From assembly GCA_038087015.1 (NCBI GenBank), contig JASBNA010000092.1, positions 61,219 through 125,218 of the forward strand: a DNA stretch of 64,000 nucleotides, written 5' to 3'. Shown piece after piece: positions 3,917 to 62,300 of the stretch; position 1 is the first letter of the stretch; each line of letters opens with the position of its first letter. Origin of the DNA: Cerrena zonata. Lineage: Eukaryota; Basidiomycota; Agaricomycetes; Polyporales; Cerrenaceae. The position numbers and the translations under genes are program-made. Below the pieces are notes generated by a model. That model searched no databases, had not been told where the DNA came from, and saw only the letters and a program-made list of their open reading frames with translations.

Positions 3917-3965
3917 ATCCGAGGGGTTGCTAAGAACGAAATGTGAACTCCCCCTTCAGACAGAT

Positions 3966-38930: not shown

Positions 38931-38959
38931 CTTTGCTTGCCCATTGGATGAGTTAGGGT

Positions 38960-41500: not shown

Positions 41501-42480
41501 GGTTAGGGTTCAGCCTTTGCTGTAAACTTTTTGGAAATCCTAAGGCAGAGTGCCCTAAAGTGTTTTACAAACTTTTAGGCATTCTGCCATGCTTTTTCGA
41601 TTTGTGTTATGTAGGGCAGACTGCCTATATGCTTAGTCATCTCTACAGGGCCCAGTGTATTGCCTAATAGGGTATATAGGCCCTATTTGGGCGCTTTTTT
41701 TGCGAATTGGCAGGCTCACCTCTGTCTGCTTACAAATCTGGTTCCACAGCCACATATATACTTTCTAAATTGGGTAGGTGGCCCTGGGGTGGGTGGCTGT
41801 GGCTACTACTCACCTTCCGCTTACTGTGGGCGCTTATGTCAGCACCCCCTATTGCCTATTTGGGAAAGTGGTTTGGGATAGGGTGGGGGATGGTGCAGGG
41901 GCCTATACCAAGCATTAGAACATGTACTAGGGGGTAAAAGAACGGCATTTTTACGCTGAATCCATATCTGAAACCCCCATATCATTTGGATAAGAACTGG
42001 GAGAGTTGTGACAGAAATAGTAGGTATAAATCGATAAAAGGGGGGTTGTAATTGAAATAGGGTAGGAAGGAGCGGTCAGAATATTAAGCAGAGGTAGTAT
42101 GGTCCTCTACTATGTTGGGAAAGGGTGTGTACAGGATCCCATGTCGATTGGATAAGAACTGCATGTCCTGTATTTGGAATACCTCCAAAATGCGAAATTA
42201 GGGGGGTACCCTAGGCTATTGGTGGGGAACCAGCCATCCCCTTGACTATCAATGATAATAAGTTCGAGATATAGTATGGGGAAGCTCATATTCCAGTCCG
42301 CTTGGCATCAGCACAATGTATGGGTTATGAGTGTTGTTCTTTCTCTCCCAGGGAGATCCTAGGGAGACCCTAGGGTTGGGCGCCTAGTGGGTAGGGCAGG
42401 GCGTGGAAGGGGCAAGGCGGGGTGGTAGAAAGTAGGTGGTTCAAAGGGTGTGAAAAATAGTGTGCTTTGACGGACAGTGT
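41501..42480. other. Unassigned, gene-free DNA
   Basis: About 1 kb without a convincing gene. It starts at the hAT break with TTAGGGTTAGGGTT and contains degenerate phrases around GGGCAGACTGCC. Plus frames at 41.66-41.94 kb overlap in different frames and are not supported. Confidence 0.35.
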
Positions 42481-42489: not shown

Positions 42490-43222
42490 GTATGCGTCTT
42501 GGACGAACATTGTGAAGGGGGAAATAAGTGGTACGAAGGGCGGAAGAGGTGCAGGTGCAAAGTGTGCTGTAGACAATGTGTGTAGACACCGAAATGTGCG
42601 TGTACAGAGGTATGTTAAACAGTATATGGCATGTGAAAATGGCACGTGAAAAAGATACCTCTTCGGGAAAAGAGAGCGTTGTACGGAAGTGCGCAAGTAT
42701 GCGTCCTAGATGCACACTTGCAGCATAGGCTTACAGAGAGGAACAGATCGTGTTGTAGGGAAGTGTGCAGGTGTGCGTCCAAGACGCATGCCGGCAGCAT
42801 GTGCTTACATTGCATCACAACCGAACCATTTTGCCGCAGGTGTGAGCATTCGAGGGAGCTTGTGACCTGGCCATACATCTTCTCCCCAAACTTTGCACGT
42901 TCGTGCAATGTTTGGGACTGGGAGAAGATGTATGGTCAGGTCACAAGCTCCCTCGAATGCTCACACCTGCGGCAAAATGGTTCGGTTGTGATGCAACGTG
43001 CACATTGGTAGCGGGCGTGCGTCTTAGACGCACACCTGCACACTTACTCGATATCTTAGGGTTAGGGCTAGCTTAGGGTGACTATGGGGGGGGGATGCGT
43101 CCTGGACGCACGGGTGGTGATACATGTTGACTAGAAGTGATGGACTGAAATATGGCTTAGTTTGGAAGTAGAGACGCTCACTATCATGAGGGGCGTGCGC
43201 CGGTGTGCGTCCAGGACGCATG
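42490..43222. repeat. Palindrome copies upstream of SNF2 gene 1
   Basis: Six copies of the short palindrome lie at about 42490, 42698, 42771, 43015, 43095 and 43202. Variants at the centre include GTCTTGGAC, GTCCTAGAT, GTCCAAGAC, GTCTTAGAC, GTCCTGGAC and GTCCAGGAC. A long palindrome sits between the third and fourth copies. They occupy the 5' flank of the first SNF2 gene. Confidence 0.85.
42810..42995. repeat. 186-bp near-perfect long palindrome
   Basis: The left arm begins TTGCATCACAACCG and the right arm ends CGGTTGTGATGCAA. The arms of about 85-90 bp pair almost completely, with a few mismatches and small indels near the centre at about 42902 (GCACG TTCGTGC). It could extrude a cruciform or form a hairpin transcript. 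It lies about 530 bp upstream of the SNF2 gene 1 start. Confidence 0.9.
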
Positions 43223-43477
43223 TCTAAGAGACTTCTACGGCATTTGACATGCGGATCACTGTGAAGATGGCTAAGACTGCTTAGTACGGGATTAGCTGAT
43301 GGCACGAAGTTCAAGCGATGGCTAGGTGGGTCTATTAGGGTTCTAATTGGTTATGATTGATGTCAGGCCCGCCTCTAAGATTATAAGCGAGTGATCGGAG
43401 CGGGAAGAAATTCGCTCATAAAGCAGAGACAATGCGGGGAAGGGCAGATCTCTCCTTCTCTCAACTCTCATCACTTA

Positions 43478-43493
43478 ACAACAGCAACAGCAG

Positions 43494-43526
<33 letters not shown>

Positions 43527-43527
43527 A
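43478..43527 (+). repeat. CAA-rich leader microsatellite
   Basis: About 50 bp of CAACAGCAACAAC-type repeats immediately precede the ATG of SNF2 gene 1, so they fall in the 5' leader. The frame is open upstream, but the translated Asn/Gln run has no counterpart in the paralogue; ATG 43528 is therefore chosen. Confidence 0.65.
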
Positions 43528-46500
43528 ATGCCTTCTCCTCCTATCGCCGTCGCTTTTCTGATGTTCACCGCAGATATGCGCCGCATCGTGGGCGTTGAGG
43601 ATGCGCCTTGGTGCTGGCCTACGTGGCAGAGCCGTGTGAAGTCCCTAACGGCGCCTTGGGTAGAACCGGCTGAAGGCGCGACTCACATTTTTGGCTGGAC
43701 TCAGAATCAGATTCGCGATGCCAAGGCGTATGTGGACGAGTTCTGCAAAAAGCCGGTGAGCCAACGTCTCACGTTTGCGCGCACGAAGGGGGACGACTAT
43801 CACGAGGCGAGGGACCTCCTTCAAAGGTCATTGGTCAAGGCGTGGGACGAGACGTGGGGACTGCCTCATTTGATCCGGACAACTTTGACGGCGATGGGGA
43901 AGGGCCGGACAGCCCTCTTGTCTGAGCATGGAGATCGACAAGTAAGTGTCGAAACAAGGTCAATGTACAGGTGAGGCGCTGATAGCTTGTATGTAGCTGC
44001 CTCCGATCGAAATGGCCGATTTGATGGCGGTCAAAGAGCACATCGCCTTTGAGCTCTTCGGGGCTGAGGGTATGAAGAAGAATTCTCGCAACAAACCGAT
44101 AATCCAGGTCCTGGAGCTTATGAATAATTGGTTCTATCAGATCTGGCGTGGAATTACGATGAAGGTCAAGCGGGACCGGGCTGCCATGGAAAAGCTGGAG
44201 GTAGAGACAGCGGCATTGCTTAAAAGTAAGTAATGTGTTAAATACATTAATTAGGCTACTAATGACATGGTATACAGAGTTTGAAGGGGAGGGTCGTAAC
44301 CCAGCGACATTCAGGGCGTACCTCAAGAAGTCTAAAATGTTGATGAGGTACTATCAGGACTTTGGCGACAAACCCAGCATTGAGGCGATCGAGGAGCACC
44401 GCACGAAATTGGACAACATTCGGAAGGCGTTGGCAATGAAGGAGGACGGGACGGCCGAGGAGGACATTAGTGAGTAGTGTTGTCAGAATGAGAGAACACA
44501 CCTAATGTAACATATGCTTAGAACTGAGTAGTGCTTTGCGAGCGTCTTTGGTGTGGTTGAGCACCCAGGCTCAACATGATTCAATCTCGGATGAGGTCTG
44601 CGAGCAGATTCACTCGCTGGCGAACGACGAGTTCGAGTTGCCTGCACTTGACCTGGCATCGGTGAGCCTGAATGAATGGGAAAGCGGCGTCGAGGCATGG
44701 GAGAAGTTGCAGGTGTCGGAGCTGTATCGTTACTTGGGCCTGGATGAGGAGAAGCCTCTCCCGTTCTTCAACAAGTACATTGACTTGGCGGATAGCCGGG
44801 ATGCATGGGCCCATCCTGCACTTGTGGAGGCGGATGAAGGGAACCCTAACCGAATTCTATTGCGTCCTCACTGGCATCAATTGGTGGGTATGTGTAAGAT
44901 GTTGGACTGTCTGTTCGATGGGAAACCGGTGCTTCTAATGGATGGGGTGGGGTTGGGTAAGACGTTACAAGTCGTCGGGGTGATTGCGATCCTTGCGTAT
45001 TATCGGACGGTGAAGAAGGAGAAGGGGGTATTCCCTGGGGCATTTGGTAAGTTAAAATGACTTTGTATTGAGAACCTACTGACATAGGTACTTTTCATAG
45101 CAGAGCGATTGTTCCAAGAGGGGGATAATATCCCGGAGCTGCCATCGATGATTGTGGTGCCACCGTCCCTGCGTCAGCAGGTTGAGACCGAGCTGCATCG
45201 GTATCTTACTCGGGGAGTGTTCGATATCATGCTCTATGAGGGCACGGTAGTGAGCAGGAGTGGGTACTGGGAGCATACATGGGATCGGTCCGTTCTGAAC
45301 GAATGTCACCGAATTCTCCTTGCTACTGCACCGGTGAGTGTTGGGACCGACTGCGAGATTATGGGTGGTGGGCTGACAGAATAATGCAGGCTATCACCAG
45401 CGATGGCTCCAATGCCTTGGTTTACAACACATTAAGCCCCCACATTCCCCCGACTAGGACTGGTATGTTGATGGACACTATCTACCAGAAGGATTGGCTG
45501 CTGGCGGTTGTTGACGAGATGCACTGTGCGCGGAACATGAGTCGTACTTTCTGGTCTGTTTGGGGTCTGCAGATCCAGAGTCGGGGAGTGATTGGAATGA
45601 CAGCGACACCAGTGATGTCGAAAATCCGGGTAAGTCAAAGTGATGTTGTAGCGAGAGTATGGATTGACTGATAGGGGATATTTAGGATCTGTGGCACATT
45701 GGCCGAATGTTGGGTATCGACGGGTTTGACGAGCAAGATGAGTATGTGGAGATGAACAAGGAATCGAGTCGTGCATTACGTGCCGATCGACGAGTGCGGG
45801 AGGTGAACATCGAGGCCTTTGTGCATGGAGAAGCTGATGGCAATGCGGTTGGAAATGTCGACGAGGTGAATCTGAAGTGGATGAGGAAGATGCGGAGGTT
45901 GTTCCAGGGATACATCGTGCGACGGAGCGAGGAGTCACGAAACTGCGACGGGAAGCCACTCATGGACTTGAAGCAATACCAGCTTGTGATCCTGGAGCTT
46001 GAGCTCTCAGGTCGGGAGAAGGAGGAGGTTGAGGCTCGACTTGCTGGGCTAGGTGATCTGCACACTGCACGAGCAGATGGGGAGGTAAGTGAATTGTCTA
46101 TTGGGCGATGCGATCAAAGGCATGCGTCCTGGACGCACGCTGGGCACCCACCTACTCGTGGAAGGCGCGCGTAGGTGGGGGTGTGGTGTGCGTCCAGGAC
46201 GCATGCCTTCCTGACATGGCTACTATGCCTTGGTCAATATGACCGTGTGCCCGGTGTGCGTCCTGGACGCACACCCTCCTGACACGGTCACGTTGCCTTG
46301 GTCAATATGGCCGTGTGCCCGGTGTGCGTCCAGGACGCATATAATCAATCGCAGTGGGGTGTATGCTAATTATTTTGTAGGCCTTCTACCTTGGTATCAG
46401 GCGAGCTGTTGTCCATCCAGATTTCTTCACCACTCGCGAAAACCAGCTTCGATTTGACACGCTCGAGGACTGGCAGAGCAACTCGTCGACCAAGCTCGAT

Positions 46501-48064
46501 GTCATGGCTAAAGTGGTGCAGTGGCACCTCACCATGGACAAACGTTCCCCAATGAAGACCGTCGATGGTGTGCTCGTCGATGGGGATGCTACTCTGCTTG
46601 ACAACCCTGACGGTCTCCCTCGAGACAAAATCGTCGTCTTCTCGATGATGGTGGTCAACACGCGGATAATATCTCAAGTAAGTTTGCTCTCAAATTACTA
46701 GCTCCTTGCTGATATCGGTCAGGTCCTCAACGTGCATGGTATCAAGCATGTTTCTATCCATGGGTCTCTCTCTCTCGCAAAGCGGACTGCTCTGATCGAG
46801 CAATTTAAAGCGAGTGACGAAAACAGTCCACGTGTGCTCATCATCTCGTCGGTAGGAACAACGGGGCTCAACTTGGCTTGGGCAAATATCTTGCTTTGTA
46901 TCGTAAGTATATTCCCCTGTCTACATGGATGCGGAGCTAAAGTGTCCATATCTTTAGGATGTTCCCTGGTCGTGGCAGGAACTGGGACAGATGATCGGTC
47001 GTCTGTGGCGATTGCCGCAGAAGAAAGAGGTGATCGTGTACCAGCTCGTCGCTCTTGGTACGGCGGATGTCTTCCTCAGCAATAACTCATTTGGCAAGGG
47101 CCGGATGTTGGAGGCATTCCAAAAAGCGAGTCCCAAGCTCCTGGCATTGCTGGGCGGCGAGGATCAAGAACCGCTCGGGAACGAAGACGACGATTCGGAA
47201 GACGACGTCGAGGATACTTCTACGGTGAAGAAGAAAGGCAAGGGTAAGAGCCAGCCAAAGAAGGCGACGAGGACGAAGAAGGGCTCTTCAGTAGTGTCCA
47301 GCGTTGACAAAGGAGAAGGATCGTCGGCCATGACGAAAGCACCGGTCCCCCGCCCCAGGAAGAAGACCACTGTCGTCAACAAACCAGAGGGATCGGCTAC
47401 AGCTCAAGCCTCCACTCTGGCTGAAGCATCGACTACAGAGCAAGCACCGGTTCCCTCTCTGTCTGCCAAAGGGAAGGGCAAAGAGAAAGCGCGCGAGACT
47501 GAGGAGGACGAGGAGGATGAGGAGGATGAAGAAGAGGACCAGCCCCCAGCGGCGACTCACACTGGATCGGAGGTGCAGGCTGGACAAGCGTCCCCTCAGC
47601 ATCAACAGGAGCAGTCTCAGCGAGAGGAGGATCAGGATGGGGGTGTGCCTCAGGCTGAACAACCTGGACAAGCAGCGTCTCGTTCTGAGCGTGAGGATGA
47701 ACCTTCCCCTTCCCCTTCTGAACCTCTTTCTTCCTCCCCTTCTTCAGAGGACGTCAATATGCAATCCCCGTCTCCGCCACCAACACCTCGTGCTCCCTTA
47801 TCAACGTCAAGCAGTAAGTAGTGGCTTAACATTTATGTCATTTACCACTAACAAACAATGTTTTAGCTCGGAGCGATGGGCGTGTGGCCAGGGCTACTAG
47901 CAAGAACGTCAGATATCGCGAGAGCAGTGAGTCCGACGTCCCTATGGCTCGCAGTAAGTGTGTGTATATGTCAACGGTATGTATTTATTAATATAAAAGC
48001 AACAGAGCGTAGCCGAGGTCAGGGTAGGGGCCGCGCTGGACCAAAGGGTCGGGGCCGTCGTTGA
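43528..48064 (+). CDS. SNF2-family ATPase/helicase, gene 1 (intact)
   Basis: Twelve exons join in phase: 43528-43941, 43997-44225, 44278-44469, 44522-45046, 45101-45333, 45390-45629, 45686-46084, 46381-46677, 46723-46902, 46958-47813, 47867-47953 and 48006-48064. They give 1236 residues. An N-terminal domain with paired W-P-T-W and F-G-W-T motifs is followed by the SF2 core: LMDGVGLGKTLQ (motif I), VVDEMH (II), GMTATPV (III), SSVGTTGLNL (V) and MIGRLWRLPQK (VI). The C-terminus is low-complexity, Lys/Glu/Pro-rich, and ends in an RG-rich tail (RGQGRGRAGPKGRGRR). Such proteins are DNA-dependent ATPases that move on or remodel chromatin DNA. All core motifs are present, so it should be active. 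Intron 7 is about 300 bp and carries four short palindromes. The paralogue lies at 52.5-57.5 kb. Confidence 0.87.
46121..46340. repeat. Palindrome array in intron 7 of SNF2 gene 1
   Basis: Four copies at 46121, 46186, 46254 and 46322, spaced 65-68 bp. The last two spacers are near-copies of each other (TGCCTTGGTCAATATG), so part of the array grew by tandem duplication of a palindrome-plus-spacer unit. The array fills almost the whole intron (46085-46380). Confidence 0.9.
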
Positions 48065-48194
48065 ACTCCTCCGCCTTTTTTTCGTACATTGTTGGAACCA
48101 GGACACTCGTCGGAAATTGTGCATCATGCATAGTTTCCATATCATTTGTAAGTAGCTACACTACGTAGTCTACTCGTATCTACTCGGACGTTGT

Positions 48195-48372
48195 TGATGA
48201 TTTTCGGACATCTCTGCTTTATTGACGACTTTCGGACGTTTTTGCTTTTGCTTTATTGACGGCTTTCGGACGTTTTTGTTTACTTTCGGACATCTCTGCG
48301 TATTCACGGCTTCCAGACGTTTTTGATGATTTTCGGACATCTCTGCTTATTCACGACTTTCGGACGTCTTTA
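48195..48372. repeat. TTTCGGACRTYT tandem repeat
   Basis: Seven or more imperfect copies of a roughly 25-30 bp unit built on TTTCGGACGTTTTTGC / TTTCGGACATCTCTGC, in the 3' flank of SNF2 gene 1. Frames across it are not genes. Confidence 0.7.
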
Positions 48373-48989
48373 CTTTCTGCTCACTATGCGATCCCTTTCT
48401 ATGCTTATCTTTTTGTTACTTCCTATGCTTTGCGCACAATTCTCTTTGAATCTTATGAAAATGATTCAGACGTTGTTACTTTCATGTTGTTCAAGCTGGT
48501 CTTAGGACGTTACATATGCAAGTACAAAAAGTACAAATTGATGATTAGTTATATGCCTTCAAGATGTGTAGAGTTGCTGTCGCTGATGAAGAGGTACATG
48601 AGAGAGATACAGCGAGGACTACAGTTCAATACAATAATCAAATTATAATGGCTACCATACACCAGATAAGTGCGGTGAGCGGTGTGCGTCCAGGACGCAC
48701 ACCTGTAGACAGGATAGGATTGAGATCATATAAATTTACGATGTCACTAAGTCTTCATTTGTAGCGGAGGTTTTCTGAGAGTTGCAGATGATACGTGGTG
48801 TGGGGTGGGTATGCGTCCAAGACGCACAGGTGTCGTTATCGTCTGTGTATCATTTGCAAGTATATTTGTGAGTATAATTTCCAAGACTGACCACTCGGCA
48901 ACCAACCACATGCATATTCTGCAATCTCAGAGTCACGCAAAAAGAAGCAGAGGGACTTGCGATATTGAAAGCATAGATGTACAGAAGGT
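48373..48989. other. Spacer between SNF2 gene 1 and gene L, with two palindromes
   Basis: AT-rich sequence holding palindrome copies at 48682 and 48810. Open frames at 48256-48648 are T-rich and lack domain features. Confidence 0.45.
48682..48827. repeat. Two palindrome copies
   Basis: One perfect copy at 48682 (GTGTGCGTCC, centre A, GGACGCACAC) and one variant at 48810 (ATGCGTCCAAGACGCAC). They lie between convergent SNF2 gene 1 and gene L. Confidence 0.85.
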
Positions 48990-49855
48990 TTACGTATACA
49001 AAACTACATTATTGTCAATGTCTTGAGCCCAGATCCAGACCAGCAGCTCGACGATATCAGGGCGCAGCCTGTCATATACCCACCTCAAGTGAGCGCTGCT
49101 ACTCAGCACCTCAGCCAATAGTGAGTCCACTCCAGACACCTCGCGCATCATCCGTGTGGCCTCAAGCTCGAGAGCTGAGGCGAATTTGGCAGTCGCGAGA
49201 ACTGCAGCGTAGTACAGGGCAAGAGACCTGTTACGCTCAGCGGTCTGGATGCCGCCAAAGTTCCGCTCTCGCAATGCTACCCAGTACCGTCTCCATCGCT
49301 CTACTCGTTCTACGACGTGCTGGGCTGCTTCGATGCAGAGCCGCAGGAAACTAGCGTGAGCCACTATTATGATGAGGCAGTTAGAATGTCAATTGCGATA
49401 GAAGATGGAGATATACTAAGTGCTGGAGGGCGCAAGTCGCCCAAATGTCTGGCTTCCTGAGTGTAATAGACGTTTCCTGAAGTACTGTTAGTGTGTAAAC
49501 TAATACGTAAGGGTAAGAACATACCTATGAGGTTGGGCATTACCCTCCTGAAAGCAAAGGCCTCTTCGAGGCGTTGGATCCTTCCATTGTCTGCACAAAT
49601 GAATAATTGTATAGGGCGAGTTTATCATGAGGCACTTACGTTGGAGAGTGGCGCCTTCCTCCACGATGAGGAGGAAATCGCCATGATCTCGGGCGAGGCA
49701 TACGTTGTACACCAATGCCGGGCCCCATTGAACCCGGGCCGGAGTCTGGTATATATGAATCAGACGATCGTCGACAATACGCAGGTGCGACTTACAGTGT
49801 AGTTGGTGACCAAGGGCAGAGCCCTGCATTCCTCGACGGTGGTTGGGTGTTGCAT
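48990..49855 (-). CDS. Unknown protein, gene L of a divergent pair
   Basis: Five exons: 49855-49796, 49745-49640, 49590-49525, 49476-49417 and 49363-48990. They give 221 residues. It starts MQHPTTVEECRALPLVTNYT and has a helical C-terminal half (MAHASFLRLCIEAAQHVVER, then WRRYWVALRERNFGGI, then AERNRSLALYYAAVLATAKF). Exons 1 and 3 have the same lengths as in gene R (60 and 66 bp), and all intron phases agree, although protein identity is modest. No known domain is recognised. There is no signal peptide and no convincing membrane segment. The two genes point away from each other across a 1-kb inverted repeat. Confidence 0.7.
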
Positions 49856-49926
49856 ACTTGAAGCAGGGATATGATGAGAGGTGAGATGTGGAGGAGGTAA
49901 AATACGGTATTAGGGATCCCACCCAC

Positions 49927-50982
49927 CGTGTCTCAAATATATCTTTTGTGGTTGTAAACTTACCATTGAGCTGGTCAAGGGCTCATTTCATTATTGCGCA
50001 GGCCTCGATGCGTGTTGGTAAGCCTATGATCAATGAGTTATGAGTTCTAAGCTCTCCGTGAGTCAGGAAACGTACGGTCATCAGGGTATTTGGGTCGAAG
50101 AATCCCGCTCGGGAGCCAAGTGGGGCTTCTAACTCTCGGGACCGTGCAAATTAGACTTTTGAGTGACTCCAATATGAAATGATGTTTGGCATAATTGAAT
50201 ACGTTCGGGAAGAAGTGTGATTGGATAAGGCCGAGACCGCGGGCTAGACAGAGGTCCGCATTTAGCCGAACGTCCGCCGTGGGGCAGGTGTGCGTCCAGG
50301 ACGCACACCGCTCCCTGGTCCACTTGAATTTCTCGCAGATAGGGATCTGTGTGCCGATGTGCGTCCTGGACGCACAGCGGGGTGCAGATCAGCTGCAGGA
50401 GGTATCGGTACATAGTACTGTGCAGGCGGGTATCCGTCCAGGACGCACAGCGGCACACAGATCCCTCTGCGAGAAATTCAGGGACCTCGGGGCGGTGTGC
50501 GTCCAGGACGCAAAGCGGCACACAGATCCCGATCGAGAAATTCAGTGGACCAGGGAGCGGTGTGCGTCCTGGACGCACACCTGCCCCACGGCGGACGTTC
50601 GGCTAAATGCGGACCTCTGTCTAGCCCGCGGTCTCGGCCTTATCCAATCACACTTCTTCCCGAACGTATTCAATTATGCCAAACATCATTTCATATTGGA
50701 GTCACTCAAAAGTCTAATTTGCACGGTCCCGAGAGTTAGAAGCCCCACTTGGCTCCCGAGCGGGATTCTTCGACCCAAATACCCTGATGACCGTACGTTT
50801 CCTGACTCACGGAGAGCTTAGGTTTCATAACTCATTGATTATAATCCAGTCGTGGCCTACCAACGCGCATCGAGGCCCACGCACTAAGGGCTCCTTAGTC
50901 TTGTCCGCAGGCTAGTCGAGATCAGCCCCTAACCAGCGCAATGGAAAGTTTACAACCACCAGAGATATATTTGAGACAGTGA
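49927..50982. repeat. About 1-kb inverted repeat, divergent promoter region
   Basis: The left arm begins GTGTCTCAAATATATC and the right arm ends GATATATTTGAGACA. From about 50047 to 50430 on the left and 50450 to 50820 on the right, the arms are nearly identical; outside that, similarity continues with indels. The symmetry axis is near 50435, on or beside a short palindrome copy. The repeat separates divergent genes L and R, so it is likely their shared promoter region. The inner identity contrasts with the diverged genes outside and indicates gene conversion between arms or recent re-formation. Confidence 0.9.
50288..50580. repeat. Five-copy palindrome array at the inverted-repeat centre
   Basis: Copies at 50288, 50358, 50430, 50495 and 50560, with spacings of 70, 72, 65 and 65 bp. 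The outer four are mirror pairs because of the inverted repeat, and the central copy is at the axis. Spacers share ACAGATCCC/GAGAAATTCA phrases, so they are related rather than unique. Confidence 0.9.
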
Positions 50983-51003
50983 GCAGTGTGTCGGCTTCAA
51001 CTC

Positions 51004-51871
51004 ATGGAGCCTCCCTCAACAATCGACGAGTGTTACAGCTGCCCGCTTTTGTCCTATTACCCGGTAAGCAGCACCCATCATTCTCAGACGTGCATCCTAC
51101 TGAACAGCTATCAGGCACCAGATGAAGCAGTGCTTGGGGACTACCACACTGGCTTTATGGTGCGCTATCGCCATGTGTCTGACAGGCCTTGTGATCGAGT
51201 TATCGAATTCGAGGAAAGTATATGTATTATGAGTATGTTTCAATTGCATCTGATTTACCTATTCAGGCTAACGGTTGATCGATGATCTCTCACAGAAGAT
51301 GGTGCCTGGTCTAGGTTGGAAGGCACCTTTACTCTTTGGAGGCGCATCGACCATGCCACAGGCGAGTCCTGTTTACTCAATAATCAAGTCTCATGTACTT
51401 ATACTACGCTTAGCGAGGCAACGATACACCGATAGAGAAGCCGTAAGTTCTGACGATCCGCGTACCCCGGGACGAGGTATGTTTTTGTAACTATCTCCTT
51501 TGCCGGGAGGTGACTTTGCTCCAGTTGCACATGCAGCTTATTTCAAGCTCATGCATGAGGCGGGGACAAATATGCTCGAGCGTGTACTCAAGTGGAAGGA
51601 GATCTGGAACCAGTGGGAAGCAGCCGACTTCGCCGGGGTTCGGAGGCAGGAGAAAAACAGGGCCTACCTCCTGTTTGACGCAAGCCTAGTCACCGCAGAG
51701 GCATATAGCGAGTTCCTCTTCAAGCAAGAGGACAAATGGAACCCAAAATACAGTGGGCTGGCCTCGGTGCTCGCCGACCTCACTGAGTTGGCCACTCGCC
51801 TCGTCTCAACGAAGGACGATCTCCTTGATTTGCGCGATCAGTGCAAGGCACATGTCCTCGCTCACAACTAG
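51004..51871 (+). CDS. Unknown protein, gene R of a divergent pair
   Basis: Five exons: 51004-51063, 51115-51217, 51296-51361, 51414-51476 and 51525-51871. They give 212 residues. It starts MEPPSTIDECYSCPLLSYYP, aligning with MQHPTTVEECRALPLVTNYT of gene L. The C-terminal half (AHAAYFKLMHEAGTNMLERV, then ADFAGVRRQEKNRAYLLFDA) aligns with its counterpart. The third intron (51362-51413) uses a GC donor (CACAG before GCGAGT) at the place where gene L has GT. Function is unknown. The two proteins keep the same exon structure while diverging strongly in sequence, which suggests both have been maintained as proteins for a long time. Confidence 0.7.
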
Positions 51872-52484
51872 TTTGGTAGTCCTGTAACTATGTCTTGCCG
51901 TATGTCTCTCTTACGAGACTTTCTCAATATAATTGTAGCCGTTGTCTGAGATATATAGACCGAGTGTTATGCTGCTAAGCCTAAGAGATCACGCCGACAT
52001 ATCAATGCACTCTGTTTAGGAACATACGATCTTCCATCAGGAACATTGTGGTCCGATATTGAAACTGATGTGTACAAGGTACGGTTGCTAGGGTTCAGCA
52101 GCTTAAGTCGCATGGAACAGCCAATACCCCATATTAGGTGCACCCGTTGTTCTCCATCCATGTGCTCGATATGCAGATGGCACCATACACCGGTGTGCGT
52201 CTTGGACGCACATCACGCACATCTTGGTAATATCATAACATTATCTGCAACCACGCAGGACGGGGAAATATTCAGGATATCCTGTCCCTGATGCTAGTTC
52301 AGGACGCGAAGGTGGCAAAACAATATCTCTTCTTTGAGAAGCAAGTCATTGGGCATCCGCTAAGTGGTGCAAACAATTTGGCACTCGCTTGTCCGATCCT
52401 AGGCAATCCCTTAAAAGCTCGTGTAAATCATGACCATACAAATATTCTCCACACATCCTTTCCGACGCTGTCAACGTGTCTGCT
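51872..52484. other. Spacer between gene R and SNF2 gene 2
   Basis: About 600 bp, with one palindrome copy at 52193-52212 (GTGTGCGTCTTGGACGCACA) and a possible decayed half copy near 52290. No gene seen. Confidence 0.5.
52193..52212. repeat. Single palindrome copy
   Basis: Centre variant GTCTTGGAC; 290 bp upstream of SNF2 gene 2. Confidence 0.8.
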
Positions 52485-55400
52485 ATGCCTACCTTCAGCT
52501 ATGGATCAAGCTTGCTTAATATCACTGCTGAATTCAGGCAACGCACTGTCTCTGTAAATACTCCCGTTGATCCTAACGCACCCTGGTCATGGCCCACCTG
52601 GCAAAAACGTACAGGGTTTGCTGAACCCCCTTGGGAAGCTGTCCCTCCTACCCAGAAACATCCCTTTGGCTGGACAGAGCGAGAATGCAGTCTGGTCAAA
52701 TGTTACGTTGACTCATTCTGCAAGATCCGTACACGTTCAGAACGCCTGGAGTTCAGCAGAGCTAAAGGTGATAACACCGCCGAAGGCAGAAAACTTTACA
52801 ACCAAGCGATCAACCTCTCCTTCAACGGGAAATGGAAACTCGTGGACGCTATGCATCGCTGTTTTCGGGACTCCAAAAAAACCTTCGAGTCCATACTTGC
52901 AGATCACGGTAGTCGCAACGTACGTTCGAATCCTGCATCATCATCGGATGCACACTCATACCCTCATCAGCTACCTGAGATATTCGAAGAAGACCTTGGT
53001 GAGGTCAAGGACCTGATCGCGGACAGCATATTTGGGGAGAGCGGCAAGAAGCCCGGATCGTCTAAATCTACCCCCGAGGTCAGGAAAGCTATTGATTATT
53101 GGGTATCGAACTTATGGCATGCCATGACCTCCAAATACCGTCGTGATGGCGTCAATATGGACAAGCTTGCGATTGAGGTCGCCGAGACTCTGCATAGTAT
53201 GTATACAATCCTACACATCTCCTTGTTATGTTGTATTTGTTATTGATCATCTGGTTCTGTAGAATTCGAAACCACGGATCGCAACATGGCAACATTGCGT
53301 CTCTTTCTGCAGAAAAGTGGCAGATTGATGCAGTATTATCGGCAATTCGGTGATATTGAATCTCAGGCGCAGATTCATGAGTATCGCGATAAGCTCACAG
53401 ACATACGCCTCGCCCTCTCGATTGATATGCAAGGCAAAACAATCCACAGTACGTACATGTTTATCACATCATCTTTCTCACATCTGACAGTTGTCGTTGT
53501 AACAGAGATAAGCCCCGCACTTCGGCAATCTCTGATGTTGTTAAGCAAACAAGAAGATGTCGATCGTATGGATGCTGAGATCGCGGAGGAGATTATCAAT
53601 CTCTCCAAAGACTCGGTTGACATTCCCGTCTTGACACTCGACAGCATCGACTTGAAGGACTGGGAAAGTGGAGTGGAGAAATATCAGACCATGAATTCGG
53701 AGGCGATCTGTGCCCTTTTAGGTATCTCTCCCGATGGGACTCTCCCTCACTTTAACAACTACATTGATGCTGTCGGTATCCGCGATCCCTGGATTGATGA
53801 TTCCCTTCACAATGAAGCACTCGATGACCCCGATCGGAAGCTTCTCCGTCCACATTGGCACCAGCTCGTAGGCATGCTTAAGATGCTGGACAGTGCTTTT
53901 GCCGGAGGACCCATCCTCCTGATGGATGGTGTGGGTCTTGGCAAGACGTTGCAAGTCATCGGCGTAATTGCACTTCTGGCATACTACCGCAAAACTAAAC
54001 AGGATACCGGTCAATTTCCCGGCATATTCAGTGTGTTTTTTTTGTTCAGTTACTGTGCCTAAGCTGATGGAGCTATCTTGTTCAATAGAGGGTAAAAAGT
54101 TCCAGGAACATGACAACATTCCTGATGAGGCCTGTTTGCTGGTGGTCCCCCTGTCATTGAGGGCGCAGGTCGAAGTTGAACTTCATCGGTATCTGAAACG
54201 CGGAAGCTTCGATGTGTTGCTGTATGACCGAGGGGCGCTGAAGATGCCAGATTACTGGCACACGACCTTCCACATGTCAAAGCATGCACCCGGCCACCGT
54301 ATCGTGTTGGCCACTATGACGGTAAGCTTTTTTGGCCAGATCTCCACAGATATCATCCATCTGACCATGTGAACCCAAGGCACTGACCAGCGACGCAATT
54401 AATTGCCTGCAGTATGCATCCACAAGCCCAAATAATGCTCCCAAGGTCATTGAGAACTGTAGTCCAACTCTCTTGACGCGGAAATGGCTCTTTACGGCCG
54501 TGGACGAGGTGCATAATGCACGCAACGTTGGTCAGAGCTACTGGGCAGTCTGGGGCTTGCGACAATGTAGCCGCGGCTTTGTGGGCATGTCGGCAACTCC
54601 TGTCCTCACCCGTCCCCACGTAAGCACCCTTTACTTGACCATCGTTGACTGTATATATGCTGATTATGCTGATAACGCTGATGACAGGATCTTTATCATA
54701 TTGGTCGCTTCATGGAGATCAAGGGATTCGATAACGCATTGGACTACCAGACGATGATCCGTGACATGACCAAAGCGAGTCGGTTGGATCGTAACGAGCG
54801 GGATGAACGTGGCGTCTGGAACGTGGACTTCTTCCGTGGGCAGGAGGAAGCCAACATCCCGGATCACGTCGCCCAGTACAGTATGCATTGGATGAACAAG
54901 ATGCGAGCGATGTTCGAAGGCCACATTATTCGCCGGGACTCCAACTCAGTGACGTACAACGGCAAGTCGATTATCAACATCAAACCTTACAAGTATGTTG
55001 CTCTGGAGCTAGCGTTGACGCCCACTGAGCAAGACGGGCTGGACGAAATCACGACAGCATTTGAGAAGAAGAGCAGCAACAAACGAACCGAAGGCCAGGT
55101 ATGTTATGATTTGTCATCTCCATATCTGAGTCGAGCATCGGTGTGCAGGAGCAGGTATGCGTCCAGGACGCACACCTGCTGCTGCCCCCGTGATACGAAA
55201 GAGACAGCAACTTCTCTGTGCTCTCTGCACTCGGTGTGCGTCCTGGACGCACACCTGCTGCTGCCCCCCACAATACATCGCTCGTGTCCGTCAGGCCTCT
55301 GCGCCCGGTGTGCGTCCAGGACGCACGGTATTCTTATTCTCTTGCTTCTGCTCATCTCCTAATCAACAGCACTTCTACCTCGCTTTCCGCAGACGGTGCC

Positions 55401-57460
55401 TGCATCCCGACTTGCACACCGGGCGTGAGACAACCCTCGCCTTCAATACGCTAGGAGATTGGGAGGCTAACCCTTCCACCAAACTCGCCGCCCTTGTGCG
55501 CGTCCTCACCTATCATCTCAAATCTGACGCTCGCAGCCCCATGACCACAGTTGACGGCGAACTCGTAGATGGACCGGATGAGCCTCTCACTACAGAGGAT
55601 AACCTACCGTGTGACAAGATTGTGGTCTACTCAGCCTTTGTCATTAACACAAGGTATATCAAGCAAGTAAGTGCTGCTTCGTAGTCTCACCGGTCTATCG
55701 AGCAGTCCTCATCCCGGTGTAGGTCTTAAATGTCCACGAGATCCAGTATCTGTCGATCGACGGTGGAATGACTGTTGCGAGACGCACCAAGGTTATTCAC
55801 CAGTTCCGTACTAGCGGGGTGGACGGTCCTCGCGTGCTCCTCGTTTCCATCGTTGGCACTACAGGACTAAATTTACCATTCGCCAATATCCTCGTGTCTT
55901 TGGTATGCATTCCTTTCCTCTTGTGATCGCGCGCTGACATTGATCGGCAGGACGTCAACTGGTCTGAACAAGATGAGAACCAGCTGCGCGGTCGTTTGTG
56001 GCGCCAGAACTAGCCCAAGACTGTAGTCTTTTACCAACTCGTTGCCCGCGGTACCTCCGATGTCTTTCTCAACAACATTGCCTTCGGCAAAGGCGTGATG
56101 CTCAAAGCTTTTGTATCAGCCCCCAAAGGGCTTCAGAAGTGGTTCCATCCAGATTACATTGAGGACAACCTGCAGAAAGACGACTTTGATTACGCGCTAG
56201 CCAAGGATAACGATAAGGACGAGGATGAAGATGAGACCCCAAAGACCAAGGGAAAGAGGAAGGCCAAAGCGAAGAAAGCAGCTCAAATATGCGAGGATCA
56301 AGACAACACTCAGGCTTCGAAGAGCAAGAAGAAAACCAAAGCGAAGGCTAGTCCCACATCAACTGAGACAGCCGAGTCTTCAACAAATGTGTCGACTGAG
56401 GCCCAAACAGCGACAGCTGATCCTTCCCAGTCCAAAAATAAGGGTAAGCGGACCACACCAGCGCCACGCAAGAAAATCACCAAGAAAGCTCTCGCTGCTG
56501 CAGCTACTGCTGATACTGTGACCGCATTGTCTCCGGCTGCTCCTGTTACAGCTGATCCATTACTGGTTCCCACTATTCCGACGCCTCTCCATGGATCTAC
56601 CTCAGACACTCCATCCCTGCTTCCTGCCACAATATCTCCAACCAGTCCATCTGCAACAATTGCAATAGTTGCTGCTGCAGGTCTAGCTGCCCCTACATCA
56701 GCTGAAAGACCTACCACAACGCCTTCTGCCCCTTCCCCTGCCTTAAATCCCCCACATTCGGAATTTACCACAACACCCGCTGCACCGCTAGCTGTGCTGT
56801 CACAATATCCTGCTATCCAGTGTCCTTTGGAAGAACAAACCACAGTTACACCCCCTCATCCTAGGGGTACGAATACTGCTCTGGTGAACACATCCCCCAT
56901 GCTCCCCGCGGGGCCTTCTTTCACCTCACCTGCTATACTCATCGAGCAATCACTGGATTCTTTGTCGGGGCTGCAAGCAAGAATTCCTCGAATGGAGGAT
57001 GCCACAACCACAAGCCGACCATCACACCTTCCGGATGACCCGATAGCTGATAACGTAGCTATGTCTCTTGATGACCATCGGGATCCCACTCCGCCAATCT
57101 TTGATGACCATCGAGATCCCACTCCGCCAATCTTTGATGATGAGTACCGGTTTGACAGCCCTACTCCTAATCACAGCCCCATTCGTAGTGGCAGCCCTAG
57201 TACCATAGGAGGTGTGTATCTAAGCCTATTATTCAAATATGTACACTGACTTTCTTATAGTGCATACACCTACTGGGCCCAAGCGGAAAGCCCCATCAGA
57301 CACATTGTCCAGTGATGAAGATGAACGCGGTCGTTCTCGACCGAGGGACAAGAGGAGAGACGCGCTTACTGCCATTCTCAGTCAAGAGAAAGCCAAAGGA
57401 CCCACAATGTTGAAGCTGGCTCCGGACTCACACAGGAAGAGACTAGGAAGGAAGCGCTGA
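52485..57460 (+). pseudogene. SNF2-family ATPase gene 2, with TAG in motif VI
   Basis: Eleven exons: 52485-52919, 52971-53196, 53263-53448, 53506-54030, 54089-54321, 54413-54619, 54688-55098, 55370-55666, 55723-55902, 55951-57211 and 57261-57460. Four exons have exactly the same lengths as in gene 1 (525, 233, 297 and 180 bp). WPTWQKR, then FGWTERE, is the shared N-domain. LMDGVGLGKTLQ, AVDEVH, GMSATPV and VSIVGTTGLNL are motifs I, II, III and V. In motif VI the frame reads LRGRLWRQN followed by TAG (56011-56013) where gene 1 has a sense codon (Gln). The frame then stays open for 466 codons to the real end. Truncation would leave 920 residues without the C-terminal tail. This is a single nonsense change in an otherwise clean gene: a very young pseudogene, a read-through case, or a sequence error. 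Confidence 0.8.
55155..55326. repeat. Palindrome array in intron 7 of SNF2 gene 2
   Basis: Three copies at 55155, 55233 and 55308, spaced 75-78 bp, inside intron 55099-55369. The first two are followed by the same ACCTGCTGCTGCCCCC. The intron is at the same codon position as the palindrome-bearing intron of gene 1. Confidence 0.9.
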
Positions 57461-58424
57461 GTGCTGCCCATTAGAGACGTCTAACATTGACTCTTTTGAT
57501 TTATATGCCCCCCTATGTAATATGTTTTTCTTATGATGTATGAAAATGATATGATTATGCACCGTGCTATTTAGACGAGAGGGGCAAGCGTAGTCCTCCA
57601 TATCCACCTCACAGAGAGAATCATTTGTGGGTCTGCAATGTGCATGCATGCTGCATAGCTACAGCTGGACATGGTCATATTATCCAAGGTTAATCATGAT
57701 TTTCTTCTGCCGTCTAGGATGACGATAATCACTCTCATGACGCACACTCACACTTAATCATCAACACGGTTGAATTAGATTGCCACAGCGGGGATTACAC
57801 TGTGCGACTGTCGAGCGCATGTAATTAACATGTGAAAACATTCAAAAAAATATGTCTTTGTCATGTTAGTTACGTGTGCGCAGCACCTGTGTGCGTCTTG
57901 GACGCACACTCACATACAATCTGCAACACGGCTGAATTATGGTTGCGTGGCGCCAGTGTGCGTCCAGGACGCACGCTCACCTTCAATTCGGCTAAATCAT
58001 GACCACCCGCGCCCCAATGTGCATCCGGGACGCATATGGGAGCATCACTTAACTCTTAAGGCTAATAATCTGTCCGTGCACCGCGCATTTGGACCACACG
58101 CATCAAATATTCATGATATCAAAATCAATATGTTACCCTACAGCCAGTGTGCGTCCGAGACGCATATATCGTAAATCCCTTGCTCTCAAGGTACATAATA
58201 TATTTAATCAGCCCGCCCCTGGTCAGGTACTGCACCCTTACAACTAAGATACAGGGGCCTCTATGGGCTCGTGTTTTTTCCGCCCGACTTCCCGCGCGTT
58301 TGCATTAGCGTTATTCAGGAGCATTCGACGAAAAACCCTTAAGAGTCGCTCCGATAGACCTCTCAGTTCCCTAACCCTCACATGTTCCTAACCCTGTCCC
58401 TCGCTGAGATTCTCATCATTCACA
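57461..58424. other. Spacer with four palindromes
   Basis: Separates SNF2 gene 2 from the 878-residue gene. Palindromes lie at 57889-58166. The last 200 bp are the promoter side of the large gene; no TATA box is obvious. Confidence 0.5.
57889..58166. repeat. Palindrome array upstream of the large gene
   Basis: Copies at 57889 (GTCTTGGAC), 57956 (GTCCAGGAC), 58017 (ATCCGGGAC) and 58147 (GTCCGAGAC). Each is followed by ACGCAC or ACGCAT. The first two spacers share CAATCTGCAACACGGCTGAA / CAATTCGGCTAA phrases. Confidence 0.85.
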
Positions 58425-61169
58425 ATGTCCTATCCCAATGAAGACCTCCCATTCGACCAGCTCTCTCTCAAAGAGATCGTGTATATGTACAGAAATTCTC
58501 TCCGCGAACTCATCGCGCTTGGTGATCATGCTAAAACCAGTGACCGCGCCAAGTTTGCTAACACTGTCCTCTGCGGTCGCTGGGGAGACCCCCCCACCAG
58601 GCTCAGTCTGAATGGCATGCAGGATGCGGGCGCTGTTAACCTCAATCATTACGAGATCACTCGTGACTTTGACTCTGTCATCGGCATCACGGACAACCTC
58701 CCTTATACCCATCCCCTCGCTATCTTCCCCGTCCCTCCCTTCAGAGAGACATTAACACAGGATGTTCATCTCTCCGGGCCCGCATTTTTGGATGCAGTAA
58801 GTTGCTTTTCTACCTTCCCCCCTTCGTCCTTTACTTATTACATTGGCAGGCAACGAAAGGCCCCGTCCCTCTTCATACCATTCCCAACCTCGCCTTTGCT
58901 AAAGTCAACAATCGACATATCGCTCGTCTCTTCCTACCCAAATTGTACGCGACAGGGGAAAAGAAGGTGCCAACCACCATCTTGCGCTCCTTCTATAATA
59001 CATGCACCCGCGAAGTCGTCCGTGAGGTTTGTCCTGAGCACATCGCCCATTGGCCCCACGACTACACCAGTGCGACCACCCAGTACAGAGACTTGCGAGG
59101 CCACCTTCACTTCTGTACGCTCGACCTTCCCCCACACCGCATCCGCACCTTTGGACAGTTGCTCCTCGAGAAAGTCCGTGCGAAACCATGGGGCGAGGAT
59201 GCTTACTTTGTCCATCAGTTGCGTGGTACCAAGGACTATACCATTCACGGTCCGCAGGCTCAAGAACACATGATCGATGCTCTGGATGATCTGCTGCTAG
59301 GCATTGATCCCGAGCTTGTAGAGGCTGAGCCGGATTCCTGGTGGGGTGATGTCGGCATTGAGGTCCGCTCTCCGGGGAAAGTTCTTCAGTGGCTAACGGA
59401 AGGACATGCCAACCTCTTGCGTCATATTCTCCCTGAGATCCCCGAGGACCAAATCGCCTCTATCCTCCGCCAACCCGCATTCAAGCCCGACATGGCAGCC
59501 CAGATCCGCGATTACTCCGGCTTTCGCTACCACTGTCGCAAGCGCATCCAAGAGGCCACCAACGTCCACTACATTAACGCCTACACCACGGACAAAAGCC
59601 CTTTCTATCAGCTCCACGCTGGCTTGTTCCGTCGTCGAAAGGCATCCGACCTTCTTCCTTCGAACATCGACAAGCTTCTCGACGATCTTGAGCGAGGTCA
59701 AGATATCCTTTCCCAATGCGGCGGTATCCCAGTGGATGGGGAGATGGAAGCAGCCGAGGGACCTCAGGAAGGCGCTGTCCGTATCGAAGTCCGTGTTCCT
59801 CTCATCAAATTCGGCCAGGTTCTCGCCACGTTTCCCCCCGAGCTTATCCAAACTTGCATCGTAAGAATAAAGCCAGAGATCTGGTGGTATGTCCTCGCTT
59901 ACACGGCCGACTGAACTGCGTCTAATTGTTGTTATTTTCAGGCAATTCAAATACTATCGCCATGTGGCGATTCTCATCGTCGTCACATACATGTCGCGTT
60001 GCCGTGCTTCTCGCCGTCGCGAGAAACCCTATCTGACCCTCGGCGCCATCCTCATCTACATGCTGAACGCTCTTCATTATCGGCCGGCCCGGGGGCAAGC
60101 TGAAGACAAATTGGTGCTCTGCTGCTGTCAACGGGTTGCAGATGGCAGCGGAGAGAGCGACAGTGATGAGGAGGATGAGCCAAACCAACCCCGCTCCTTA
60201 CTCGTCCCCATTCTCTACAAAAAGGGAATATACAACATCGCCGGTATTATTATGCGCCACGGTGACGCACGGATCCATGTCTTCACCACCGTCTCTGATC
60301 ACAGTCTGTCATTCTTCTACAATGAACCCTCTCTGACCAGCATCCAGGCCTACTTTGGGGTCCATCACCAGATTGCAGGTACGACAACTCGGATCAACCC
60401 CAATCGCAACCCCAACAAGCGCGTCCGCACTCACGAGATCCAACTGGACGATGTTCCCGCTGAGCAGCGCGTTGATTTTAGACTCGCCGAGCGTGGCGTC
60501 GTTGTCGAAGCGCCTCCTCCTCGCCGTGGTCCTGATATCGACGCCCTTACAGATATGGATGTAGATATGGAGCTCCTAGGCTTCGTCCCCAACCCACAGC
60601 CCATCAGTGTCAATGACCGCGTGGAGCTGATCTGGCACCAGTTTCCTCGCGACATCATCTCCAAGGGTCCCAATGAGCGTGGGGAGAGCAAACCGTCCTA
60701 CTTGTGCATGTCTGGCGAAGCGATCCAAGCGGCCACCATCGCCATCTTCAACACGCGTGACATGCGCGACATATTCGTGCGCGTGCAATGGCGACAGGCA
60801 GACACCAAGACCTGGGATGAGACCCTCTTTCGTCACTACTTTCCCCCCGCCGATGCGCAGATCCCTACCAAGTTCCAGAACTTTCGCAATTGTGTCTACT
60901 GGCAGAACTGGCGCCAGCTCATCGCAGAGATGACTCCTACTAATGCCATCATCACAACGGCCTGTATCAAGGCCAAGTTCGACACACTCCTGTGGCTCCC
61001 GTTCGCCAGTGCTGATAGACTGTGGACCACCAAATTGTCCCGCAACGTATACCAGTTTCTTCCATCAGATGAGCCCGCGAGAGCCGCTCCACAGATCGTG
61101 TTCAACCCTCGTCGAGTTGCCCAGGCCCCACTCATTAGGAGTGCTGAAGATAGGGAGGATGTTGAGTAG
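58425..61169 (+). CDS. Large unknown protein (878 residues)
   Basis: Three exons (58425-58796, 58850-59886 and 59942-61169) join in phase. The protein starts MSYPNEDLPFDQLSLKEIVY. Notable segments are HVAILIVVTYMSRCRASRRR (hydrophobic then basic), an acidic linker SGESDSDEEDEPNQPRS at about residue 545, and a C-terminal globular part (FRHYFPPADAQIPTKFQNFR, then YWQNWRQLIAEM). I see no ATP-binding, nuclease, transposase or methyltransferase signature that I can name. Codon use and intron quality are good, and both long exons are uninterrupted, so it is a real gene. It lies between two palindrome groups and shares the block with the SNF2 genes, so a joint role is possible but unproven. Confidence 0.8.
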
Positions 61170-61307
61170 ATAGTATGTCTTGTCCTTCAATGAGTCACTA
61201 GCTGCTAGAATGTATCAACGTTTTGTTCGCCTGGGGTATTTATGAGCTTCTGTGTTTGAACAATAGGGTGCAAGACGAAAATATAGTGATCACATACAAG
61301 GCGAAGC

Positions 61308-61504
61308 GTGTGCGTCTTGGACGCACACCCGCTCTACATCACCAGCAGACTGGGCCCACTTTCCACCCATTGTGGCTGCATATCGAAAATTACCATAATT
61401 ACTCCCCACCATCATTAGTGTGCGTCTTGGACGCACACTGGCGACCGTGCTCCTTAAGTGGCTGTACTCACGGTCATGTGCGGGTGTGCGTCCCGGACGC
61501 ACGC
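61308..61504. repeat. Palindrome array downstream of the large gene
   Basis: Copies at 61308 and 61418 (both GTCTTGGAC centre) and 61484 (GTCCCGGAC centre). This is the last group in the window; none follows up to 64000. Confidence 0.9.
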
Positions 61505-61575: not shown

Positions 61576-61922
61576 AAAACAAATTGAAAGAAAAAAACAT
61601 GTTAATCTTCCTAAGACTATTGCTGGGGTTCATTGGCTTTTACTTCAGTTCCCGTGACTGTTGTTAGTATAGCTCCTCCGCTCCCGTCTTCGACAGAAGC
61701 TTCGTCGCATTGCCATGTATGGATATCGGCAAGTTGCGTGTGTTTGTAGCAGAAATTGGTGTTCGGCAAAGAGCGGCTGTCGAATGGTCACGACGAAGCT
61801 TCCGTCGAAGACGGGAGCGGAGGAGCCATACCAACAACAGTCATGGGAACTGAAGTACAAGTCAACGAACCCCAGCAATAGTCCTAGGAAGATTAACATG
61901 TTTTTTTCTTTCATTTTGTTTT
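61576..61922. mobile_element. Fold-back (MITE-like) element with 140-bp arms
   Basis: The left arm begins AAAACAAATTGAAAGAAAAA and the right arm ends with its near-complement TTTCATTTTGTTTT. The arms of about 140 bp pair well and surround about 70 bp (TGTTCGGCAAAGAGCGG). Each arm tip toward the centre carries the hairpin motif GTCTTCGAC-type (CTTCCGTC-GAA-GACGGGAG). There is no coding capacity. Target duplications are not clear. Confidence 0.75.
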
Positions 61923-61979
61923 AACTTTTATTTCTCATACAAGCGGCGCCGGGCGCACATACCCGACCCCTAATAATCT

Positions 61980-62300
61980 ATGGTGCAAAGTCAAAAGTCA
62001 CGTGACAGAAATTGAACCGCTCTTTGCCGAACATCCACCGCAATTTGCCGGCCTCCTTTGCGTTACATCTTTCCTTCTCACGTGACTAAAACTCTCCGCA
62101 ATCCCCGAGGCCCATCCAACGCTGTGCGACGGAGCTTCTGTCGAAGACAGAAGCGGAGGAGTAGCAGCCCGACCCGCTACAAGGCGACGAAACTTCCGTC
62201 GAAGACGGAAGCGGAGGAGCCATACATAAATTCAAACCTCGCCCTTTTTGACAGTCATAGGAACATCCAAATGGTTTTCTTTTCTTTCTTCATACCGAAT
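61980..62300. mobile_element. Second, decayed fold-back copy
   Basis: It contains the complement of TGTTCGGCAAAGAGCGG near 62018-62034. It carries two hairpins, CTTCTGTC-GAA-GACAGAAG (about 62135) and CTTCCGTC-GAA-GACGGAAG (about 62190). It ends with GACAGTCATAGGAAC, resembling the right arm of the element at 61576-61922. The arms are too diverged to delimit. Confidence 0.5.

Follow-up and report, generated by a model that had tools for sequence, protein, structure and literature searches.

A putative subtelomeric repeat of Cerrena zonata carrying SNF2-type genes and an array of palindromic sites

Why does one short palindrome recur within a single block of neighbouring genes in a 64-kb stretch of fungal DNA? 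The stretch, hereafter the window (64,000 nucleotides, from contig C92), belongs to Cerrena zonata, a wood-decay basidiomycete of the order Polyporales. An original prediction made from the window had proposed that palindromes and genes form a functional unit, either a mobile or amplifying cassette or a set of binding sites of a dimeric protein. We compared the window with the whole genome (55.5 Mb, 171 contigs). The reading that we favour, as probable though open to real doubt, is that the block is a terminal (subtelomeric) repeat working like the yeast Y' element and that its palindromes are putative homodimer sites with a boundary or regulatory role.

A scan of the window with the 17-mer core of the palindrome at up to three mismatches found 28 sites at 42492-61502 and none elsewhere (8, 20, 24 and 28 sites at 0, ≤1, ≤2 and ≤3 mismatches, respectively). 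Raising the limit to four mismatches added no site anywhere in the window, and the predicted confinement of about 28 copies to the block was thus borne out. The strict form TGCGTC-N3-GACGCA occurs 24 times, compared with 0 in 100 dinucleotide shuffles. According to our own gene models, none of the 28 sites overlaps a coding sequence (CDS), although 61.5% of the block is coding. All eight non-coding segments longer than 150 bp hold at least one site and none of the 29 short introns or gaps does, in agreement with the predicted occurrence in each spacer and in one intron of each of the two SNF2 genes; the SNF2-B CDS coordinates behind these counts and the copy-variability counts below were off by a few bases from the final model.

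The sites form eight clusters, which occupy convergent, divergent and tandem spacers. Cluster 1 (42492-43221, six sites) lies upstream of SNF2-A and contains TTAGGGTTAGGG at 43056 and a 126-nt inverted repeat (42761-42886 / 42920-43045), the loop of which is inverted in some copies of the block. Cluster 2 (46122-46340, four sites) sits in a 296-bp intron of SNF2-A (46085-46380), cluster 3 (48684-48827, two sites) in the convergent spacer between SNF2-A and gene L, and cluster 4 (50290-50578, five sites) between the divergent genes L and R, within an inverted repeat (50025-50843) that has 300-nt arms of 99% complementarity and a 219-bp centre. Cluster 5 is a single site between R and SNF2-B (52195-52211), cluster 6 (55157-55326, three sites) lies in a 271-bp SNF2-B intron (55099-55369) at the same intron position as cluster 2, cluster 7 (57891-58165, four sites) between SNF2-B and gene C, and cluster 8 (61310-61502, three sites) downstream of gene C. 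Aligned with each other, the two cluster introns agree at 74% over 94 columns, a large share of which belongs to the sites themselves; most other introns of SNF2-A measure 45-60 bp and most of those of SNF2-B 49-91 bp.

Within clusters, 14 of 20 intervals are 61-79 bp long, so the predicted grouping at 60-80 bp describes most of the spacings and not all; no helical phasing was apparent on inspection by eye. The clusters are evenly placed (coefficient of variation 0.245, equalled by 0.06% of 20000 random non-coding placements), and the largest gap between them is not unusual by itself (7.6%). Since the genes by their arrangement already space out the non-coding DNA, this evenness is weak evidence.

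In the genome, the palindrome is tied to one repeated unit. At up to two mismatches, the 17-mer gave 232 + 243 matches, palindromes usually being counted on both strands, compared with 1 + 2 for a reversed control. All 79 places with the exact 17-mer lie inside block copies (on the 11 contigs C5, C8, C11, C35, C37, C51, C57, C92, C93, C141 and C146), as do 53 of the 54 places with the TTG-centred 15-mer, the remaining one being inside C2. For the CAG-centred 15-mer, with 157 places, all of the 100 matches listed are on block-bearing contigs. Because the sites fall in block copies almost throughout the genome, they mark the unit, and the even genomic scatter against which the original prediction had been set was not observed. 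The exception in C2 is an isolated TGCGTCTTGGACGCA at C2:2279901-2280400, far from any block and about 0.4 Mb from the contig end.

The conserved core of the site consists of a pair of 6-bp half-sites separated by three variable central positions and differs from the predicted 10-bp half-sites around one A/T. As a half-site, TGCGTC hardly varies: at offsets 2-7, counted outwards from the centre, 4 of 336 cells depart from it. Fourteen sites depart at offset 8, none of them on both sides, and ten depart at offset 1, one of them on both sides, so the earlier statement that most changes keep the symmetry fails; the choice of sites by ≤3 mismatches to the 17-mer biases these counts towards conserved positions and against double changes. 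Because the half-sites are nearly invariant and the variable positions are uncompensated, a dimeric binder fits better than a selected hairpin, which the pair counts at offsets 1 and 8 do not support. Two conserved half-sites, a variable spacer and independent outer variation are what a dimeric site should display, with the caveat that selection by likeness favours conservation, and TGCGTC-N3-GACGCA is probably the recognition site of a homodimeric DNA-binding protein.

The block is itself repeated. Its left, centromere-proximal edge lies at 42316-42330 (+ strand), where the block begins at 42322 with GGGTTATGAG; in blastn comparisons, the copies with a fetched left edge begin at window positions 42322 to 42326, and their flanks are unlike. 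A search with the first 979 bases of the block detected 18 left ends (on C5, C8, C9, C11, C16, C22, C35, C37, C38, C50, C51, C57, C88, C92, C129 and C146, and two on C93), of which the one on C9 matched over 723 bases at 93%; short left-edge remnants on C18 and C26 come in addition. The outer side of the block faces the contig end in 18 of 18 cases, at a distance of 2-41 kb in 17 and of 83 kb in C9. Because six copies (C16, C22, C38, C50, C88 and C129) have one flank in common, the 20 edge places reduce to 15 distinct flanks. Eight of these (C5, C8, C11, C35, C51, C57, C146 and the inner block of C93) have TTAGGG at the junction and four a partial hexamer (GGGT in the window, C37 and C9, AGGT in the C16 group). 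Direct alignments longer than 400 bp inside the block gave 98.0-99.9% identity when C57 was left out; the C57 copy, whose sequence looks poor, is 93.9-99.2% identical. The unit extends past the predicted block interval, to 42322 on the left and, in C35 and C141, to the end of the window on the right.

A 1.1-kb repeat outside the block (38471-39569; 92-96% identical to copies in C37, C93 and C35) sits inward of a block in C37 and C93 and outward of it in C35. Near the telomere of C35, 4.8 kb (3621-8404) are 97.6% identical to the inner flank of the C37 block, in opposite orientation.

On the outer side, the window ends exactly where contig C92 ends. In C51 and C57, TTAGGG repeats follow directly after window position 58279 (switch point 58279-58280, + strand), and the C11 copy is cut at 56481, with AT-rich sequence and telomere repeats closing the contig about 2 kb further on. 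C5, C37 and C93 stop at 58189, which we take as an assembly limit. The sequence is common to C35 and C141 as far as the window end and to C146 as far as its own contig end; telomere repeats stand at the start of C35, in which the block edge lies near 40.9 kb, and at the end of C141. No common right end of the unit was seen among the copies compared, and the first 15 kb of C35, next to the telomere, contain no site at ≤3 mismatches. In C93, AT-rich subterminal sequence is followed by a single TTAGGG and a block that is cut at window position 48558; AT-rich sequence then returns, before a further repeat and a second block. Because the block of C93 sits where the AT-rich subterminal sequence of C35 and C11 leads into telomere repeats, we read C93 as a former chromosome end that gained one block and then another by serial terminal accretion. 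The AT-rich subterminal repeat itself (C35:1-3600) is found on C35, C20, C111, C18, C11 and C36 and is internal in C26 and C93.

Because the copies are near-identical, share one inner edge with the outer side facing contig ends, have telomere-like junctions and enter telomere repeats at different points, we favour the Y'-like reading. An eroded or broken end with a few TTAGGG units would invade a block elsewhere at its telomere-like inner edge and would copy outward from there by break-induced replication; the anatomy of the block, together with yeast Y' biology in the excerpted text of PMC13177704, points to such copying by recombination or break-induced replication. As the sites bracket every transcription unit, their most likely role would be that of putative boundary or regulatory elements in the chromatin, by which the genes would stay expressible near the telomere, comparable to the Tbf1/Reb1 sites of the subtelomeric anti-silencing regions (STARs) of yeast. 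Boundary-type protein sites are described for yeast X/Y' in PMC13177704. As a side effect, the sites would fold in single-stranded DNA, where template switching could flip or delete sequence. Of the cassette that had been predicted, the amplifying part stands, with 18 left ends, near-identical copies and telomere-like junctions, and mobility in the transposase sense is not supported, with neither a mobility-enzyme domain in the open reading frames (ORFs) and proteins scanned nor a 5- or 8-bp duplication.

The aligned copies record how the sites change. A 49-bp segment between two sites (46139-46187) is exactly inverted in C11 and C51 (49/49), a whole site at 55157 is inverted in the same two copies (23/23, tested on C11), and a 3-bp core is flipped at 42773 in C51. 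Cluster 4 has its central part in opposite orientations in the window and in C93 (118/127 positions match the reverse complement), and C5, C8, C37 and C57 align like C93 there. C8 carries a site-to-site deletion of 136 bp (46185-46320), for which the inner C93 block has an equivalent gap. The inverted-repeat loop at 42903 is inverted in three of the eight copies typed (C37, C51 and inner C93) and forward in C5, C8, C11, distal C93 and the window; C35, the ninth examined, was untypable.

In a full alignment of seven copies (C57 was left out for its poor sequence, and C141, C35, C146 and inner C93 as incomplete or partial), we distinguished 14 rearrangements by our own grouping, six of which start and end within 4 bp of sites or inside them. 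The sites with 3 bp on each side make up 3.3% of the block. A gap at the end of C8 was dropped as a trimming artefact, and a 7-bp deletion plus insertion at 50472-50492 was counted within the cluster-4 inversion; a 73-bp deletion (50356-50428) is of uncertain independence because it lies inside the rearranged cluster 4. The copies thus carry flips and deletions at the sites, and template switching would be the mechanism. According to PMC8604942, template-switch mutation at short inverted repeats produces the same spacer inversion and arm homogenisation; unlike such general cases, the Cerrena inversions recur at one site family inside an amplified terminal repeat. Because near-identical copies record inversions at short palindromes, the unit offers a natural assay for template switching near telomeres.

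The two helicase-type genes of the unit are paralogues. SNF2-A (43528-48064, + strand; 12 exons and 1235 aa in our own model) matches the C. zonata protein P0003 (QCA50_014658, 1267 aa) at 100% over residues 1-960; the P0003 model exceeds ours by 32 residues, a difference for which initiation at the upstream ATG 43432 would account. In Pfam, P0003 matches SNF2-rel_dom (2e-15) and Helicase_C (3e-14) and no RecQ-specific family. Among proteins of solved structure, SNF2-A is closest in sequence to Ino80-type ATPases, the similarity lying mainly in the C-terminal helicase lobe; its best match outside Cerrena in a limited database search scored 69 bits. SNF2-B (52485-57460, + strand) is 44% identical to SNF2-A over 984 aligned columns (A residues 1-964). 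It is stopped, truncated or frame-shifted in four of seven aligned copies: the reading frame stays open in C8, C51 and C93, the C11 copy is truncated, the window copy has one in-frame stop that none of seven other copies covering that place shares, and the copies in C5 and C37 are frame-shifted, where sequencing error is possible. SNF2-A lacks internal stops in six of seven aligned copies, the exception being C11, which has two. Polymorphism between copies comprises 29 synonymous and 22 non-synonymous changes in SNF2-A (ratio 0.23) and 18 and 31, respectively, in SNF2-B (ratio 0.52). In the SNF2-B tail, a stretch of 32-33 bp (57081-57113), a tandem unit by eye, is absent in C5, C37, C51 and C93.

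Several observations weigh against the Y'-like reading with dimer sites. At the inner junction mostly one TTAGGG unit or less remains, three of the 15 flanks lack an intact TTAGGG (C18, with one mismatch, C26 and distal C93), and the hexamer found there could simply belong to the end of the unit itself. Telomere repeats are present on just five block-bearing contigs (C11, C35, C51, C57 and C141), the remaining block-bearing contig ends being without them in this assembly, and contig ends alone are weak evidence because assemblies break in long repeats. Of the 14 rearrangements, seven have both ends outside sites and one reaches a site at a single end. The main result against simple purifying selection is that, from copy to copy, the sites vary more than the rest of the non-coding DNA: variable columns number 17/336 in the core, 8/72 in the centre and 10/140 in the adjoining 3 bp, compared with 131/6020 in other non-coding DNA and 143/9181 in CDS (ten named pieces, C57 and C146 left out). 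We attribute this partly to rearrangement or misaligned rearranged clusters and partly to possible hot-spot mutation. Regarding the predicted dimeric-protein sites, the conservation pattern fits, but this variability argues against strict conservation, and no candidate for the DNA-binding partner was identified, a DUF3716-like ORF at the end of the window falling below the cut-off. The DNA comparison covers copies within one genome and no second strain or species.

Given these points, the palindromes of a Y'-like unit might instead be replication-stalling or hairpin elements that provoke the template switching and break-induced replication by which the unit spreads, an explanation that we hold doubtful and yet the most serious competitor. 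The inversions and deletions with ends in sites (46139-46187, 55157, 42773 and 46185-46320) would suit it, as would the 42903 loop, inverted in three of eight typed copies across otherwise different copies, the occupation of convergent, divergent and tandem spacers, and a site variability exceeding that of other non-coding DNA. It is opposed by the pairing, which is not preserved at offsets 8 and 1 because the changes there are uncompensated, and by the status of template switching, according to PMC8604942, as a general by-product of short inverted repeats that needs no selected role. Subtelomeres are commonly homogenised, and the unit may also be an ordinary subtelomeric segmental duplication with incidental repeats, in which palindromes and helicases do nothing for it. 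The damage to SNF2-B in four of seven aligned copies, the stops in one of seven SNF2-A copies, and sites no more conserved between copies than their surroundings agree with this explanation. We nevertheless consider it unlikely in view of the sharp common edge, mostly with a telomere hexamer, the half-sites kept in differing flanks and in the same intron of paralogues that are 44% identical, and the low non-synonymous rate in SNF2-A.

Two further explanations invoke mobile DNA. The palindromes could be tiny elements like miniature inverted-repeat transposable elements (MITEs), gathered in tolerated non-coding DNA of a repeated region, given that CDS is avoided (0/28) and that the intronic sites lie in two unusually long introns of 271-296 bp. 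Matching dinucleotides just outside the 23-mer (offset 12) occur at 8 of 28 sites, compared with 4.6 for shuffled partners, a weak excess that 3.4% of shuffles reach and that is the best of nine offsets. The target-site duplications of a MITE are missing, however: none of 5 or 8 bp was found at the 28 sites at nine offsets, and only one of 4 bp. The palindromes are also almost absent from the remaining 55.5-Mb genome, and four aligned stretches differ by site-to-site deletions or inversions, with no precise presence or absence of an element; the MITE-like reading is therefore disfavoured and very improbable. Still slimmer are the chances of a giant transposon or telomere-targeted retroelement of the terminon, MoTeR or Starship kind. 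One common end with varied flanks, truncation of the other side and the telomere-like junction are what such an element could leave. Against it, we found no reverse transcriptase, transposase or recombinase domain in ten window ORFs or in P0003, gene C and its relative P0002, L, R and the DUF3716-like ORF (the scan left out the 3' half of SNF2-B and frameshifted remnants), and so no reverse transcriptase like that of the telomeric retroelements MoTeR and terminon; moreover, the genes retain introns and no common right end was seen.

Returning to the Y'-like reading, the parallel with the S. cerevisiae Y' element, as given in the extracts of PMC13177704, is that of a multi-copy terminal repeat with a helicase ORF and, in many copies, telomeric sequence at the inner side. 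The Cerrena unit is likewise a subtelomeric multi-copy repeat with an inner telomeric repeat and an encoded helicase (two SNF2-family genes), but the likeness is one of organisation, and we do not file the unit as a Y' member. It measures at least 16-19 kb with five genes, compared with 5.2-6.7 kb for Y'. Unlike Y', it has intron-bearing SNF2 genes and an array of one palindromic site, and its inner telomeric sequence is mostly a single unit, compared with interstitial telomeric sequences (ITSs) of at least 20 bp in Y'. Further marks of a Y' element are an ARS and amplification through homologous recombination upon telomere failure. Helicase genes near chromosome ends are shared with other Agaricomycetes, such as Agaricus bisporus var. 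burnettii and Ganoderma leucocontextum, in which the subtelomeric helicases are RecQ types according to the passages seen of PMC7473861 and PMC10817607; those of Cerrena are instead SNF2-type (SNF2-rel_dom and Helicase_C) and are not of the RecQ type.

A helicase-bearing terminal repeat is therefore a known kind, and the novelty lies in the SNF2 genes, in an edge with a single hexamer and in the array of sites; among the matches listed in our literature search, the titles and abstract starts describe neither subtelomeric SNF2 units nor such palindromes. Fungal chromosome-end repeats repeatedly carry helicase genes without a settled function, to which the Cerrena unit adds a second helicase class, and a discrete cis site beside each gene is directly testable for protein binding. 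A bolder version, which we regard as rather unlikely, would make the unit a self-regulating chromosome-end parasite. It would seed on a single TTAGGG, copy outward onto eroded ends and carry the sites as an address label for its own protein (gene C, L/R or SNF2), which would mark chromatin for the SNF2 remodellers and make the sites invert or recombine. If true, this would amount to a site-based end-capture system, of a kind not described among the matches listed in our literature search.

The unit has three further genes. Genes L (48990-49855, - strand; about 221 aa) and R (51004-51871, + strand; about 207 aa), both approximate models, are paralogues with 25% identity that encode weakly similar small proteins flanking the inverted repeat with 300-bp arms; L has no Pfam match. 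Gene C (58425-61169, + strand; 3 exons, 878 aa) is identical to the C. zonata protein P0001 (QCA50_014254) and has no Pfam match and no known domain. Its one relative, P0002, is 41% identical; a profile search with both sequences found nothing further, a profile search of PDB gave one match at E 0.6, and AlphaFold2 with the two sequences reached a mean pLDDT of 29.9, with no confident structure. A viral origin of gene C was considered and is unsupported, as 12 viral-contig stretches fit the pattern and none encodes a relative. Among the matches listed, those of SNF2-A (92) and gene C (15) in the genome all fall in block copies, the scoring having covered the best candidates.

Beyond cluster 8, a second palindrome-rich stretch (61576-62225) holds, besides a 41-nt motif in three copies, a 132-nt inverted repeat (61576-61707 / 61791-61922, 93%). 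The DUF3716-like ORF (62895-63731, - strand) has cysteine motifs and a weak DUF3716 match, and is possibly a DNA-binding protein carried on long copies of the unit. Between the two, short sequences on several further contigs match the segment 62300-62370, a pattern to be expected at the end of a dispersed element.

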